Assembly (NCBI GenBank): GCA_016933335.1
Contig: JAFGBD010000074.1
Coordinates: 22,353 to 86,352, forward strand
From: Bacteroidales bacterium
GTDB taxonomy: Bacteria > Bacteroidota > Bacteroidia > Bacteroidales > UBA10428
Direction of reading: 5' to 3'
Length of the DNA stretch: 64,000 nt
A program made the translations under genes and the position numbers. Below are positions 10,438 to 19,337 of the stretch, in pieces (position 1 is the stretch's first letter; each line of letters starts with the position of its first letter). The notes below the pieces were generated by a model. The model was not told the DNA's origin. It ran no database searches and worked only from the letters and a program-made list of their open reading frames with translations.

Positions 10438-11790
<1,353 letters not shown>

Positions 11791-11921
11791 TTATAAACCT
11801 CCCTGTTTTTGGCTGCTAAAATAAAGAACTTTGAGGCATGTTATCCATGCAGGTCTGATAATTCCGTGTTTTACTGATAGAATTAAGTGGATTGCTTAAT
11901 GAGAGACATGAAGCAGAAGAA

Positions 11922-12575
11922 CTACATCTCGATCAGGTTGTTCTTAATGGCAAATTTCACCAGATCAACAACGGTTTTGAGATTGAGCTTCTGCATGATA
12001 TGATTTTTATGCGATTCAACTGTCCTCACGCTGATAAAAAGTTTATCGGCAATTTCCCTGTTTGAATGGCTTTCTCCCCACATTTTGAGAATCTCGGTTT
12101 CGCGTGAACTCAGGCTTTTAAGACTGTCAAAATCTGAGCCTTCCCTGGATTTAAGGTTACTGATATATTTGTTGAGCAGCAAATGGGTTATGGATTTGCT
12201 GTAAAAATCATATCCGTTGCGGATGGTATAAATTGCTTCAATAAGCTCATTTCTGCCGGTATCTCTGGCCAGAAATCCACTGGCTCCGGCTTTGATGATC
12301 TTCAGGATAAATTCTTCTTCATTATGCACTGACAATACCAGGATCTTTACCCCCGGAAAGCTGATCATAAGCTGGCTTATCAGATTATGGACAGTCACAT
12401 TCAGTGTATGTATATTTACAATCAGAATGTTTACCGCATTTTTTTTCAGGCTCTCTATCAGATGAGCTTTTTCATCAGATTTTACAGCAATATGAATATC
12501 ATCAACATCTTCAAGCAGGGAACTGACACCTTCCTGTACAATTTTATGCTCATCGAATATGCCTATTTCTATCAT
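11922..12575 (-). CDS. NarL/LuxR-type regulator with a degenerate receiver domain
   Basis: C-terminal LuxR HTH 'LSSRETEILKMWGESHSNREIADKLFISVRTVESHKNHIMQKL'; receiver acceptor position is N54 ('ILIVNIH'), conserved Lys is R104 ('GFLARD'). Confidence 0.9.
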   Translation of the reverse strand: MIEIGIFDEHKIVQEGVSSLLEDVDDIHIAVKSDEKAHLIESLKKNAVNILIVNIHTLNVTVHNLISQLMISFPGVKILVLSVHNEEEFILKIIKAGASGFLARDTGRNELIEAIYTIRNGYDFYSKSITHLLLNKYISNLKSREGSDFDSLKSLSSRETEILKMWGESHSNREIADKLFISVRTVESHKNHIMQKLNLKTVVDLVKFAIKNNLIEM

Positions 12576-12594
12576 ATTTGTTCTTGTCTTTCAA

Positions 12595-15500
12595 TTAAAT
12601 CTGAATAACCGAAATCATGCTTTTACCGTCCATTGTGATGGTGAGAGGATTCTCAAACCGAATGTGCCTGAAATGATTTGTACGGTGAATTGTTCTCTGC
12701 CTGTCAAGCAGCTTCCATTGGATATAGTCGGTTGAAGAACTGTCCCTGACAGATAAATAGCCCACATTCATTGATGTGAGGTTATGGAAGAAATGCGAAC
12801 CCAGAGATGAATCCAGGGGAAAGTCCGGGAGACTGATTTCCACAATAACCTTGGCATTGCTGATCTGAGGCCAGATTACCGGGATTCCCAGAAACTGATC
12901 GCGTGTTCCCCATCTGCCCGGACCAATAAGCACATATTGCTTGTTTTGTCTTGACATAAAATGATTTAACTCTTCAATCTCATTTACCATCTCAAGCGTT
13001 TTAAGCTTGCTGAATTTATCAACATCCACATAGATCACATCACGAATGTTTTTTATTTTACCATTTCCCAGACTGGATGTTGTATAAAGTAAGATTCTGG
13101 ATTGATCAACTTTGTCCGGGTCAATGACATAATGAGAAAGATTTTCCACCAGGGGTTTGATTTGCAGAAGGTAAAATGAAGGCAGGTCATTGATTGTCTT
13201 TGTAAGATCAACTGCGTATTCTAGTTCCACGGGTGAACCCAGGGCTTCTTTCACGGTATGAAGCATGATGTCAATTGTCTCGGCAAGCGGAATATAATTG
13301 TGTTTTAGGATATCTGCAAAATTGAGGATACGGGGGCCTTTTGAAACCAGTCCTTCTTCAATCCTGTCGTTATCAGAATTATAAACGGATGCAAGATGTT
13401 TTAATGTTCCGTGTTTTTCAGCAGCGCTGATTTCAAGCAGAGCCAGAGAAGCTTTATCGCCATATTTCATCAGATCGATAACCTGTTTTGATAAATCGAC
13501 CGCGTAAAAGTCAACTTGTGTACTGTTCAGTAAGTCACGTGTTGAAAACATCTCTATATTCGGATATTTCGGAGAAAACCTGAATGCTTTGCCGCCCTCC
13601 ACTACATAGGAACCCAGTCCCAACGCTGCAATGGCAAAACCTTCTTCAGGTTTCATGTGTGACACAGGGTAATAGTTGTGCGAATTGGCAATACCACTTA
13701 TATGCGGGTAATAATAATCTTCAAATTGCTGTCCTGCCAGTTCCTGCAGGACTATAGCCATTCGCTCTTCCTCTACTTTATGGTTAATGGCCTTGAAATA
13801 TGTTCTTGCATAACCTGAATACACAGATGCATATACAAGTTTGATGGCATCCACGAGATTCTGAAACCGTAAAAATTTGTTGGGATGATTATTGGGTATG
13901 ATAATGGTATCAAATACACCTGCAAAGGGTTGTGTAATGGAATCTTCTGAAAGGCTTGATGATCTGACGGCAATGGGTCTGGAGATCTGATCGATAAACA
14001 CTTCAAGCTTTTTCATCAGCGATCCTGAAAGCTGTGCCTTATAAAAATATTCCCTTATTTTCTGATAAGGTAATTCAGGGTTGAAAATTCTCTCATAAAG
14101 CCTGTTCTTTTCTATGAAAATTTCAAATTCATCGATTCCTATGATTGCTGTTTTTGGTGTCCTGATGTTGATATATTTCGATAATGCAGAGAAATCAATG
14201 TTATATATCAGTGTATTGATGAATGCAAGTCCCCTGCCTTTCCCACCCAGTGATCCGCTTGAAAAATTGACAATATTTTTTTCATCAATATCTGTGGATT
14301 CATCAAATCCGAGAACCTTGCCTTTTTTCTTCTCCTCGAGATATTTTTTAATGGTTTGAATTAGAAAAGTCCTGATATCATGGATATTAGGAAAATCCGT
14401 TATTCTTAACGGATTAAGGATTTTTGCCAGATGTATCTCTCCCCGCCCCATGATCCAGAGCGAAAACTGATTTTCATTGGCATGGGTATATAAAGATTCT
14501 TCAGGAATGGTATGAAGAAGTGCAAGAAACTCGTTCAATGAACGGGCTACGGCAATCTGTTTGCCTTCTTTGTTCCTGAAAACAAAATCTCCGAAGGCCA
14601 GATTTCGGGTGAGAAAATTCTTCAGATCATTCAGAAGGCTTTCGGAGTTTTTATTTACAAAACCCACACCGAGGTTTTGTGCTATTTTTTCATTTTTGGT
14701 ATCGGCAGATTGCAGAATGATTGGCAGGTTTTTAATATTTGATTTTGCATATTTGATGAAATTGATACCTGCAGTTTTATCAAGCCTGCCTTCTTTCTCA
14801 AATTCAACATCAGAAATGATGCAAAGAAGGAAATCCTTATACTTGTGAAACAGGTATATGGCATCTTCGTAATTTCTTGCCAGAAGAATCTTTGGTCTTG
14901 ATCTCATTTTACAGATCTTATCCAGTTCGTTTTTTTCCACTTCGACAAGGGTTTGCTGCACCTGTCCGAACACAATGGAGTAAAGAATCGGCAGGTATTT
15001 TGAATAATACTGGGCTGAATCTTCAAGAAGCAGTATCACCCTTACAAGACCTATCCTGGTATCATTTTCAACATTTGCCTTATCTTCAATGGACTTAACG
15101 ATGGCAAAAAATATCTGTGAATCCCCGTTCCATACGAACAGCTTGTCGATTATTCTTGAAGCGGGCAGAATATCCTCAAAATACTGGATATTGCTTTTCT
15201 GGTTCAGCAATAAATATATGGGTATATCAGGCTTTCTTTTTTTGATTTTTTTAGCCAGTTCAAGGGGATAGTGCTGATCAATTCCTGCCATCAGAATAAT
15301 CAGATCAAAAGAAGTTGTTTCCAGCAATTCCATTGCTTCTTTGGCAGAAGTGACACCGGTAATCCTGGGGAGTGAGAAAAGGCTGTACTGGTATATCTCA
15401 CCCATGAACTGTTCAAAGAAGTGATCTTCATTTTCAAGTATAAACGCATCATAAAGGGTCGCAACAAACAGTATTTCCTTGATCTTGTATTTCATCATAT

Positions 15501-17199
15501 CGAAATAGATGTACTTATCGATGATCTGTTTGTTGAAAAAGAGCTGCAGGGGTTGTTTGTCTTTTATCAGTGATTTTCTGTATTCTTCGGCTTTATGTGA
15601 TACAGCAGGTTTGAATAAAGAACGTCTGTATATATCTCTGCCTTTCAGATTGTTAATATATCCACTGATTAATTTCGCGATATTTATCAATAATTGTCTC
15701 TCTTCCCTCATAAAAGGGCCTTCATAGTCCTGGGGAAATTCTTTCAGATAACATATTTCTATGGTGCCTTTTTTATTATCGATGGTAACAAAACTTTCTT
15801 TCTGCATCCATCGTGTTACCTTGAATTTGCGGCTGCAGTATACTTTACCTTCAAATCTTATCCGGGTGACCGTGGAATTCGGATATTGCCAGGCTTTCGG
15901 AAGGATGTTGCAGATTTCCTGTAATGTTTCTTCAAGCGATTTGCCTTCGGCGATGATCCGGGATGTCAGGTTGATTCCTTTAAGCTCTTTCAGTCTTTCC
16001 CTGTTTTCAGATAACAGTTTGTTAAAAATATCCTTTGTTGCTGATCCTGCTATGAGGTTTGCAAGGTTTATCAGCAGGTTTCTTTCTTCTTTTAAGAACG
16101 GGCCTTCATCTTCCTGCGGAAATTCCTTCAGATAAAAGACTTCGATTAAGCCCTGTTTGTTTTTTGGCGCCTCAAAGGTTTGCGTTTGGGTCCAGGGTGT
16201 TTCTCTGAAATTCGGGCTGACAAATACCTTTTTTTCGAATGTTATCCGTACTGCAGTAAATTCGGGATACTGCCAGGCATCAGGAAGAATGGAACTGATG
16301 AGCTGCAAAGATTCTTCGAGGGTGCGGTTTTCTTTTAAAATTGCCGAAGTCTGGTTGAGACCGTGCAGCTCTTTCAGTCTTTCGGTGTTTTGGGCAAGCA
16401 GAACCTGCAGGTTATTCCTGGAGACAGACCCGGAAATCAGAGCCGCAAGGTTGTCAATCAGGTTCCTCTCTTCTTTCAGAAACGGACCTTCATCTTCATC
16501 AGGAAATGCTTTAAGGTAAAAGACCTCAATCAGTCCCTTCTTATTATCAGGTGTCTCGAATGACTGTTTCTGACACCATCTGGTCTCCATGAAATTCTTA
16601 CTGGTAAATACCTTGTTTTCATATCTGATCCTTGCAACTGTGTGTTCGGGGTATTGCCAGGCCTCGGGTAGAAAGGAACAAATCTCCTGAAGGCTTTCTT
16701 CGAGTGTCTGGCTGTCTTTCAGCATTTTAGTGGTAAAATTGATTCCCATTAATTCCTTCAGCCTTTCTTTTATATCATAATGGAGATCTTTTAACTGTAT
16801 TCTGGAAATGGCACCTGAAACGATTGTGGAAACATGGTCTAAAAAAGAATCTTCTTTAAAAAGAGGTTTTTCATCTGCTTGACCCGCAAAATCATGGTCG
16901 AAAAACAGCTGGATAACACCTTTTTTATCATTGGGAATCTCAAAGTTCCTTTTTTTCACAAAGGCGGTCTCGGTAAAATTTTTGCTTGTATACTCGTTAC
17001 CGTCAAATATGATTCTGGCATAAACATTTTCAGGTTGCGCATATACTTCAGGTAAAAGGCTGCATATGAGTTGTAATGAATTATCCAGATCAGGTTCTGA
17101 AGAAAGAATCTCCAGTATTTTTCCAATGGTCCGGTATTCATTGAGATTCATTTCTTCAAAGATGATCTCATTGTTTTTATTTTCAGTCTGTCTTGCCAT
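12595..17199 (-). CDS. Multidomain protein: 4x N-terminal repeats, two REC-like domains, PEP/pyruvate-binding (PpsA N-terminal) domain
   Basis: Repeats '(I/L)LP.AWQYP..T..RI.FE.KVF.S.NF..T.W.Q...F....NK.GLIEVFYLK.FP..DEGPFLKEERNL'; REC2 'VILLLEDS...CIISDVEF...FVNK'; PPDK_N 'FSSGSLGGKGRGLAFINTL', 'PIAVRSSSLSEDSITQPFAGVFDTI'; no TSHxA swivel or C-terminal PEP-utilising barrel seen. Confidence 0.88.
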   Translation of the reverse strand: MARQTENKNNEIIFEEMNLNEYRTIGKILEILSSEPDLDNSLQLICSLLPEVYAQPENVYARIIFDGNEYTSKNFTETAFVKKRNFEIPNDKKGVIQLFFDHDFAGQADEKPLFKEDSFLDHVSTIVSGAISRIQLKDLHYDIKERLKELMGINFTTKMLKDSQTLEESLQEICSFLPEAWQYPEHTVARIRYENKVFTSKNFMETRWCQKQSFETPDNKKGLIEVFYLKAFPDEDEGPFLKEERNLIDNLAALISGSVSRNNLQVLLAQNTERLKELHGLNQTSAILKENRTLEESLQLISSILPDAWQYPEFTAVRITFEKKVFVSPNFRETPWTQTQTFEAPKNKQGLIEVFYLKEFPQEDEGPFLKEERNLLINLANLIAGSATKDIFNKLLSENRERLKELKGINLTSRIIAEGKSLEETLQEICNILPKAWQYPNSTVTRIRFEGKVYCSRKFKVTRWMQKESFVTIDNKKGTIEICYLKEFPQDYEGPFMREERQLLINIAKLISGYINNLKGRDIYRRSLFKPAVSHKAEEYRKSLIKDKQPLQLFFNKQIIDKYIYFDMMKYKIKEILFVATLYDAFILENEDHFFEQFMGEIYQYSLFSLPRITGVTSAKEAMELLETTSFDLIILMAGIDQHYPLELAKKIKKRKPDIPIYLLLNQKSNIQYFEDILPASRIIDKLFVWNGDSQIFFAIVKSIEDKANVENDTRIGLVRVILLLEDSAQYYSKYLPILYSIVFGQVQQTLVEVEKNELDKICKMRSRPKILLARNYEDAIYLFHKYKDFLLCIISDVEFEKEGRLDKTAGINFIKYAKSNIKNLPIILQSADTKNEKIAQNLGVGFVNKNSESLLNDLKNFLTRNLAFGDFVFRNKEGKQIAVARSLNEFLALLHTIPEESLYTHANENQFSLWIMGRGEIHLAKILNPLRITDFPNIHDIRTFLIQTIKKYLEEKKKGKVLGFDESTDIDEKNIVNFSSGSLGGKGRGLAFINTLIYNIDFSALSKYINIRTPKTAIIGIDEFEIFIEKNRLYERIFNPELPYQKIREYFYKAQLSGSLMKKLEVFIDQISRPIAVRSSSLSEDSITQPFAGVFDTIIIPNNHPNKFLRFQNLVDAIKLVYASVYSGYARTYFKAINHKVEEERMAIVLQELAGQQFEDYYYPHISGIANSHNYYPVSHMKPEEGFAIAALGLGSYVVEGGKAFRFSPKYPNIEMFSTRDLLNSTQVDFYAVDLSKQVIDLMKYGDKASLALLEISAAEKHGTLKHLASVYNSDNDRIEEGLVSKGPRILNFADILKHNYIPLAETIDIMLHTVKEALGSPVELEYAVDLTKTINDLPSFYLLQIKPLVENLSHYVIDPDKVDQSRILLYTTSSLGNGKIKNIRDVIYVDVDKFSKLKTLEMVNEIEELNHFMSRQNKQYVLIGPGRWGTRDQFLGIPVIWPQISNAKVIVEISLPDFPLDSSLGSHFFHNLTSMNVGYLSVRDSSSTDYIQWKLLDRQRTIHRTNHFRHIRFENPLTITMDGKSMISVIQI
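15655..17136 (-). repeat. Four tandem intragenic ~128-aa domain repeats (aa ~22-133, 145-260, 272-387, 400-515)
   Basis: Direct reading of the translation; repeats 2-4 share long identical stretches. Confidence 0.9.
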
Positions 17200-17358: not shown

Positions 17359-17389
17359 TTGAACAAACCTGATAATTATTCTATATTTG
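17359..17389 (+). promoter_or_regulatory. Bacteroidota-type promoter TTG-N20-TATATTTG
   Basis: TTG 17359-17361, 20-nt spacer, TATATTTG 17382-17389; overlaps the TTG chosen by the ORF caller. Confidence 0.5.
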
Positions 17390-17406
17390 AATTAAATTCG
17401 CACGAA

Positions 17407-18156
17407 ATGAGAATCTTATACATATTATTCTTTTTTTCTGTATATCAATATGATGTGGATAAGCCGTTGAATATTATGATCATCGGAGATTCAAACGGAG
17501 CCAGTGAAAAAGGCTGGGTATACCAGCTGGACAAACTGAGGCATGGTACTGACCATCTGATCAATTATTCAATAGGGGGGAACACCATAGGCTTTGATAA
17601 CCTTGGCAGGGACACCCTGAATACGCTTAAAAATATCAATGGTTACATCAAAAATGCAGAAGACAGTCTTCAATACCTGGATAAAATATTGATTTGTCTT
17701 GGAACAAATGATTGCAAGGCTGTTTTTGACACACTGCAATCTGAGGTGCCGCTGAACCTGGAAAAGCTGATTTTAATTATCAGGGATCATCCCTTTTGTT
17801 CAGATATAATACCCGATATCGTATTGATCACTCCTCCTCCGGTTGCCGTTGATTCACTTCTGTTGCCCAAGTATTTCGGAGGGAAGAAGAGGCTTGAAAA
17901 GCTGCTGCCTCATTACAGGATCATCGCAGATAAGTATGGCTGCCTGTATGTTGATATTTATCATCCCCTGTCTGGTGATTTCACCTCATATACGGTGGAC
18001 GGTATCCATCTTAACGAAGCAGGGTCCATAAGGGCTGCAGAAATTATAAATGAGATGATAATGAATCCATCTCAGGGCAACAACAAGAAAATTACAGATG
18101 CCGGATATAAAAGAATGAATGATCCTGTTCTTAAAAATGATGATGCTTCATTGTGA
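17407..18156 (+). CDS. SGNH/GDSL hydrolase, likely exported
   Basis: 'IMIIGDSNGAS', 'LGTNDCKA', 'DGIHLNEAG' blocks; signal-like MRILYILFFFSVYQ; start moved from TTG 17359 to ATG 17407. Confidence 0.8.
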   Translation: MRILYILFFFSVYQYDVDKPLNIMIIGDSNGASEKGWVYQLDKLRHGTDHLINYSIGGNTIGFDNLGRDTLNTLKNINGYIKNAEDSLQYLDKILICLGTNDCKAVFDTLQSEVPLNLEKLILIIRDHPFCSDIIPDIVLITPPPVAVDSLLLPKYFGGKKRLEKLLPHYRIIADKYGCLYVDIYHPLSGDFTSYTVDGIHLNEAGSIRAAEIINEMIMNPSQGNNKKITDAGYKRMNDPVLKNDDASL

Positions 18157-18194
18157 ATGATTTTATGAATCAGCCTTAAAACAAACAGTTACTT

Positions 18195-19337
18195 GTGAAA
18201 ATAATTGATAAAGAGATTCTTTCGGTTGACACCCCAAGGGTGCTTATAGATTACGATGTCTTAATGTCCAATATTCATATGGTACACGGGTATGCCGAAC
18301 GTTATCAGGTGGATGTCAGACCGCATGTGAAATCACATAAAAGCCTGGATATTGCCGCAATACAACTGGAAGAAGGAGCGAAAGGACTGACAGCTGCCAA
18401 GGTGGATGAAGCGGCAGTGTTTTTCAATACGGCGACGAAATCATTCACACTGGCATATCCGCTGACAGAAGAGCACAAGATTCAAAGGATACTCAGCAGT
18501 ACAAGGCAGTTCAGTCTTGACATGAATCTTATCGTTGACAGTGAAGAAGGTTACGAGGTTGTTGCTTTGATGTGTAAAAGGCTTGGTATAAAGCTGAAAA
18601 TCTATATCAAGATTGATGTCGGGTTGAAAAGATGCGGACTTCCTCCAGGGGATCCCCGGATTTTACGCATTGCCAGGAAAGTATTATCTGACGGCCATCT
18701 TGAGCTTGCCGGTCTTCTCTCGCATGCCGGTCATGTATACAGGGCCGGAAATATCGATGAGGTCATACGTATCGCCCGGGATGAATTGAAAATATTGTTC
18801 AGGGTCAGAAAGTACCTGCTTGATTACGATATCGAAACAAAAAGAATTTCAATCGGCTCAACACCTTCATTGCTGGCCGGTATCGATTTACAGGGAATAT
18901 CTGAGATAAGGCCGGGGAATTATGTTTTTATGGACAGGATCACCTGGAAACTCGGATTAATTGCTCCGGAGCAGATAGCATTAACCGTTATGTCAACCGT
19001 GGTGAGCAAAAACAAGAATCATTTTATCATTGACGCCGGCTCAAAAGTGCTGAGCTCCGATACCGGTGCACATGGCTCAAAGATTCTTGAGGGTTACGGA
19101 CTGGCATACCCGGCTGAAAAGTATCTTGAAGAGGATTACAGGATGAAAATCATCTCATTATCAGAAGAGCACGGGTTTATTGAACGTCCGGATTTTGATC
19201 TGCCGCTCGGGACAAGGATAAGGATCATCCCCAATCATGCCTGTCCTGTTGTTAACCTGACGGATTCACTCGTCGTTCACAGCAGGAATATCATCAGGCA
19301 TGTATGGAAGGTACATGCCAGGGGAAAGGTATTATAA
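18195..19337 (+). CDS. Alanine racemase N-domain / D-threonine aldolase (D-serine dehydratase-like) PLP enzyme
   Basis: 'DVRPHVKSHKSLDIAAIQLEEGAKGLTAAKVDEA' PLP Lys region; C-terminal 'IIPNHACPVVNL' metal-binding motif; GTG start. Confidence 0.82.
   Translation: MKIIDKEILSVDTPRVLIDYDVLMSNIHMVHGYAERYQVDVRPHVKSHKSLDIAAIQLEEGAKGLTAAKVDEAAVFFNTATKSFTLAYPLTEEHKIQRILSSTRQFSLDMNLIVDSEEGYEVVALMCKRLGIKLKIYIKIDVGLKRCGLPPGDPRILRIARKVLSDGHLELAGLLSHAGHVYRAGNIDEVIRIARDELKILFRVRKYLLDYDIETKRISIGSTPSLLAGIDLQGISEIRPGNYVFMDRITWKLGLIAPEQIALTVMSTVVSKNKNHFIIDAGSKVLSSDTGAHGSKILEGYGLAYPAEKYLEEDYRMKIISLSEEHGFIERPDFDLPLGTRIRIIPNHACPVVNLTDSLVVHSRNIIRHVWKVHARGKVL

Follow-up and report, generated by a model that had tools for sequence, protein, structure and literature searches.

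Comparison of genomes shows that a large protein of 1534 amino acids, here called BIG, and a LuxR-HTH regulator of 217 amino acids form a conserved gene pair, and on balance the two are likely to act as a module that controls the glutamate/2-oxoglutarate node. In the window, meaning the whole stretch of 64,000 nucleotides that was analysed, BIG (12595..17199), the regulator (11922..12575) and gdhA (10438..11790), coding for an NADP-glutamate dehydrogenase (GDH) and predicted to be the target of the regulator, are all located on the minus strand. ORF reading confirmed the 19-nt gap that the initial annotation had placed between BIG and the regulator. BIG displays four GAF-like repeats, a pseudo-receiver, a receiver, a DUF5752-like segment, a PPDK_N ATP-grasp and a C-terminal domain; a sequence search against solved structures gave no match. 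Its ORF is not an artefact, because orthologues with 60-76% identity over almost the whole length occur in most family genomes. As had been stated before, no histidine kinase gene was found among the flanking ORFs read, in contrast to a two-component system with its cognate kinase adjoining the regulator; this check covered the flanking ORFs, and a kinase may lie at another site of the genome. Divergently upstream of BIG, a GDSL-hydrolase and a D-serine-dehydratase-like gene are found (17359-19337, plus strand), a neighbourhood that was not seen to be conserved in relatives.

The proposal that the two genes belong together was borne out by a co-occurrence survey of the family. BIG is present in 20 of 23 family genomes, a regulator orthologue in the same 20, and both are missing from the other three. 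BIG and the regulator adjoin each other in 19 of the 23, and the twentieth carrier (G021) has them at ends of contigs. In the genomes that lack the pair, two of the three being incomplete, a close (at least 80%) relative of this gdhA was not found either, and gdhA stands beside the pair in 13 of 14 contexts of relatives. The partner of BIG depends on its length: the regulator comes next in 23 of 24 loci with a BIG of at least 1250 aa and in none of 55 with a shorter one, 37 of which have a 990-aa paralogue in this position, although the loci share descent, so that these and the other locus counts overstate independence, and draft genomes break some contexts. In our reading, the regulator took over the position of the 990-aa paralogue. 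Some Bacteroidales-like BIG loci carry Spirochaetaceae or Chlorobiota labels (L095, L117, L155), and may come from mislabelled or contaminated MAGs.

According to Pfam, the regulator consists of a receiver plus a LuxR-type HTH, the NarL/FixJ layout. Its residue 54 is Asn, and the earlier suggestion that this receiver is no standard phospho-acceptor holds for the whole group, the acceptor Asp being absent in 33 of 33 BIG-linked regulators and present in 10 paralogous ones. This contrast between linked copies and paralogues marks the loss of phosphorylation as a stable trait. Receivers without the Asp form a recognised class, the aspartate-less receivers or ALRs (PMC4395418), and by the definition given there, Asp missing and conserved as such, the regulator belongs to it. 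The sequences thus support a regulator that would be unable to use Asp phosphorylation. Like ALR regulators such as RitR (PMC4395418), it joins a receiver without phosphorylatable Asp to a DNA-binding output, but unlike RitR it has an HTH of the NarL/LuxR type and is paired with a PPDK_N sensor protein.

That gdhA might be a target had been mentioned as a possibility, which gained weight from a conserved dyad in the gap between the regulator and gdhA. This gap measures 131 bp in the window, where the predicted operator is the 19-bp dyad TCAGTAAAACACGGAATTA (11859..11877, minus strand), its family consensus being TACGTAAAACACGKAATTT. A weaker tandem copy is located 21 bp from the first (11880..11898, minus strand), and in ten loci a second copy occurs at exactly this distance. 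A promoter-like block, AAAGTT..TATTTTAG, lies at 11816..11832 on the same strand; its AAGTT begins 46 nt from the operator start in the window and in six other genomes, a distance identical in seven loci, with AAGTT mostly followed by TAnnTTT. Expectation-maximisation found TACGTAAAACACGKAATTT in 17 of 17 regulator-gdhA gaps with a score of 186, compared to 56-69 for shuffled sets. Among gdhA upstreams without the regulator, 27 of 28 scored below 6 bits for the dyad; 30 controls were taken at first, two of which proved to be regulator loci that bear the motif and contain an additional ORF or a gap, leaving 28 true controls. In one genome, where gdhA was relocated to another contig, the dyad is still found in front of it. 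Genome-wide searches with at most one mismatch returned one match per genome in four genomes, namely this site, while the reversed-pattern control gave 0-2. The dyad was not found upstream of the paralogous gdhA of the window genome and, apart from one weak shared site in L147, not upstream of BIG, where it would have indicated autoregulation.

Together, co-occurrence, placement and specificity of the dyad make gdhA a probable direct target, and we consider that the regulator very probably acts on it via the predicted operator, motif and regulator being paired here by their co-occurrence. It is highly likely that the regulator binds this dyad independently of Asp phosphorylation and probably activates gdhA; activation is the probable outcome because the dyads sit at a fixed distance upstream of the promoter-like block. 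The best reading of these sequences is a phosphorylation-independent transcription factor that would be dedicated to gdhA. A larger regulon was considered and rejected, as genome matches with two mismatches were no commoner than those of the reversed-pattern control. Two further sites deserve mention: a near-perfect dyad upstream of nfnAB-type genes (L076:4992-5014), in a genome with gdhA moved away, suggests a small regulon in some species, and a strong dyad precedes a dihydroorotate dehydrogenase-like gene by about 80 nt (L088:5009-5027).

The four N-terminal repeats of BIG that were noticed initially could be mapped by phmmer to aa 19-515, all on the minus strand: repeat 1 (aa 19-132, 16804..17145), which was matched with repeat 3, repeat 2 (aa 144-262, 16414..16770), repeat 3 (aa 266-390, 16030..16404) and repeat 4 (aa 401-515, 15655..15999). 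Pfam models gave no match to any of the four, and "GAF-like" is a descriptive label chosen in this analysis. In relatives, the domain of repeat 3 is also part of sensor histidine kinases (L082 aa 117-230; L083 aa 207-316) and of a PPDK_N protein of 1057 aa, which makes a sensory role of the repeats likely.

An AlphaFold2 model of residues 560-1534 (mean pLDDT 83.9, pTM 0.69) revealed both of the receiver-like folds that had been described for BIG, with PleD and PorX among the best Foldseek matches; only one of the two folds reached the Pfam cut-off, as a weak match. Receiver fold 1 (aa 573-717, 15049..15483, minus strand) has no acceptor Asp, the family showing Met or Thr at this position. Receiver fold 2 (aa 721-867, 14599..15039, minus strand) is intact and retains E726, D727, D797, S831 and K850 in nearly all relatives, being the only one to keep the acidic pair, acceptor Asp, Ser and Lys across the family. 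Two receivers in tandem are also known from PleD-type proteins, but PleD has a diguanylate cyclase as output, whereas BIG continues with an ATP-grasp and an unnamed domain. Pfam places a DUF5752-like helical segment between receiver fold 2 and the ATP-grasp (aa 885-959, 14323..14547, minus strand).

The PPDK_N ATP-grasp of BIG (aa 983-1351, 13147..14253, minus strand; Pfam E 4e-32) showed rifampin phosphotransferase 5hv3 as top Foldseek match (E 3.6e-13). K987, R1079, E1325, E1327 and Q1346 line up with those of the true PPDK that this genome encodes, and these ATP-site residues (Lys, Arg, two Glu and Gln) are invariant in 43 relatives. Thus, of the PEP/pyruvate-binding ATP-grasp domain in the initial annotation, the ATP-grasp with its ATP site stands and the PEP/pyruvate site does not: PPDK_N is the ATP/AMP-binding part of PPDK, and the pyruvate/PEP site lies in the C-terminal barrel (PMC12636432), which is missing here. 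For the same reason, the idea that the pair couples PEP/pyruvate state to transcription was abandoned; since PPDK_N binds ATP, sensing of PEP or pyruvate is without support. BIG shares the ATP-grasp and its conserved ATP-site residues with PPDK and PEP synthase, but differs from them in having neither the PEP-utilisers swivel PF00391 nor the C-terminal PEP/pyruvate barrel, for which Pfam gave no match. The only PF00391 match in the whole genome belongs to the one ordinary PPDK, encoded at another place. That BIG is no PEP synthase, as proposed earlier, is therefore supported.

Instead, the protein stops after a C-terminal domain of 183 aa (aa 1352-1534, 12598..13146, minus strand), which no Pfam model matched, which none of the libraries searched names, and for which Foldseek found no PDB fold match of significance. 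It is compact in the structure model (pLDDT 88.9) and displays the invariant residues R1429, D1434, E1454, H1469 and N1473 as well as the invariant motifs GxGRWGxxD and SxGxHFFxN. In all matches obtained (20 of 20 in six genomes), it was accompanied by PPDK_N.

The linkage to GDH extends far beyond the window. Our neighbourhood set comprised about 80 named orthologues of BIG, nearly all from Bacteroidales, and an even draw of 149 Bacteroidota genomes served as phylum survey, the BIG family being present in 20 of them. Counting contexts with a GDH within three genes (and, for the phylum, at least 2.5 kb on both sides), linkage was found in 16 of 18 at the level of the phylum, 9 of 10 at that of the family and 16 of 42 at that of the order; by our own rough estimate, based on about three GDH among some 3,500 genes, chance would give less than 1% per context. 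GDH, 2-oxoacid oxidoreductase or nfnAB was present in 31 of the 42 order contexts. Three subfamilies related to BIG adjoin several GDH subfamilies. Comparison of these neighbourhoods shows that the wider BIG family adjoins GDH genes across the phylum; such linkage indicates shared function, but not its direction or mechanism.

Among the named orthologues, a short BIG is followed by the 990-aa paralogue and then often by gdhA, and in many Bacteroidales (e.g., L148:5335-8203) the alpha and beta genes of a 2-oxoacid:acceptor oxidoreductase lie directly upstream of it. Family members without a GDH neighbour are often found beside a 2-oxoacid:ferredoxin oxidoreductase, and loci flanked by korAB usually have no adjacent GDH. 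One genome revealed several pairs (L211: 990-aa protein, gdhA, 990-aa protein, GDH), and nfnAB of the NADPH-dependent glutamate synthase type is near BIG at six family loci and one distant locus. A second GDH locus of the window genome (G000 contig C25, L066:7037-13274) encodes a different GDH of 428 aa, followed by PPDK_N proteins of 581 and 1057 aa. The 1057-aa protein, with a GAF-like domain, PPDK_N, a relative of the BIG C-terminal domain and a nucleotidyltransferase, recalls modifiers of the GlnE/GlnD type. These links to GDH and other 2-oxoglutarate/glutamate enzymes, along with the C-terminal domain with its invariant His and the intact receiver 2, go beyond the initial annotation.

The closest known parallel to BIG among the systems compared is VadK (Rv1127c) of Mycobacterium tuberculosis, described in a preprint as a barrel-less PPDK that autophosphorylates and interacts with methylcitrate-cycle enzymes (PMC12636432), reportedly tuning flux through them without acting on transcription of that pathway (PMC12636432). 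Both are PPDK relatives that kept the ATP-binding domain and lost the pyruvate/PEP barrel. VadK has a catalytic swivel His (His422), whereas BIG has no detectable swivel and its invariant His1469 lies in another kind of domain; its GAF-like and receiver domains, as well as the linkage to GDH and a transcription factor, further set BIG apart from VadK. We favour a role of BIG in regulating the glutamate/2-oxoglutarate node in an ATP-dependent manner, with VadK as the comparable case. It would sense small molecules via the GAF-like repeats, possibly take a phospho-signal through receiver 2, use ATP in PPDK_N with the help of the C-terminal domain, where His1469 may take part, and act on the regulator, GDH or both, changing their state through direct contact or by modifying them, much as VadK does with methylcitrate-cycle enzymes. 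Taken jointly, we regard the arguments for and against this chain of sensing, ATP use and action as evenly balanced.

A direct VadK-like dikinase, in which the C-terminal domain would have diverged extremely from a swivel and be phosphorylated at His1469, appears improbable. The domain occupies the usual place of the swivel, its invariant His begins a helix in the model, and the motif and the order of strands and helices looked swivel-like by eye. Yet hhalign gave it a probability of 0.1-0.2%, compared to 98-99% with which three groups of true swivels, used as positive control, found each other, and the PDB fold search was without significant match. Detection of a swivel by HMM had been named beforehand as a finding against the initial reading, as had a lack of co-occurrence of the two genes; neither HMM search nor profile comparison detected a swivel, and the genes do co-occur. 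We also deem it unlikely that PPDK_N and the C-terminal domain form a metabolic enzyme that acts on 2-oxoglutarate, glutamate or pyruvate in an ATP-dependent step, with the receivers tuning it; the metabolic genes next to BIG and the invariant ATP-site and C-terminal residues would suit such an enzyme, but the receiver and GAF-like domains suggest signalling, and the long BIG has a dedicated DNA-binding partner next to it.

A purely transcriptional module, in which BIG acts on the regulator alone and proximity to GDH elsewhere reflects shared expression, is somewhat less improbable, though still rather unlikely. Operator and regulator co-occur, and the regulator comes after the long BIG, as this explanation would predict. 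However, such a regulator is missing beside most GDH-linked paralogues, with regulator-like genes near only 5 of 18 phylum contexts of the BIG family, and a dyad scan of GDH-linked paralogue loci without regulator revealed no site. The strong GDH linkage at loci without the regulator makes it likelier that the BIG family ancestrally acted on the GDH protein itself and that the regulator joined later as a partner.

In the open-access literature we found no published account of GDH control in these bacteria or of a link between BIG and GDH. Our most far-reaching suggestion, which we put forward tentatively and with some doubt, is a phylum-wide class of GDH partners, in which an ATP-grasp fused to a new, obligate catalytic domain would modify or allosterically set GDH under receiver and GAF-like inputs, some members having recruited a phosphorylation-blind gdhA factor. 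If true, this class would represent carbon/nitrogen control apart from PII, GlnE/GlnD and known GDH or GOGAT regulators. BIG would also show that PPDK relatives outside actinobacteria have lost the barrel and acquired a regulatory role, by a route differing from that of VadK. For the Bacteroidota, the analysis offers a candidate GDH regulator, a defined predicted operator and a protein family with a genetic link to GDH.
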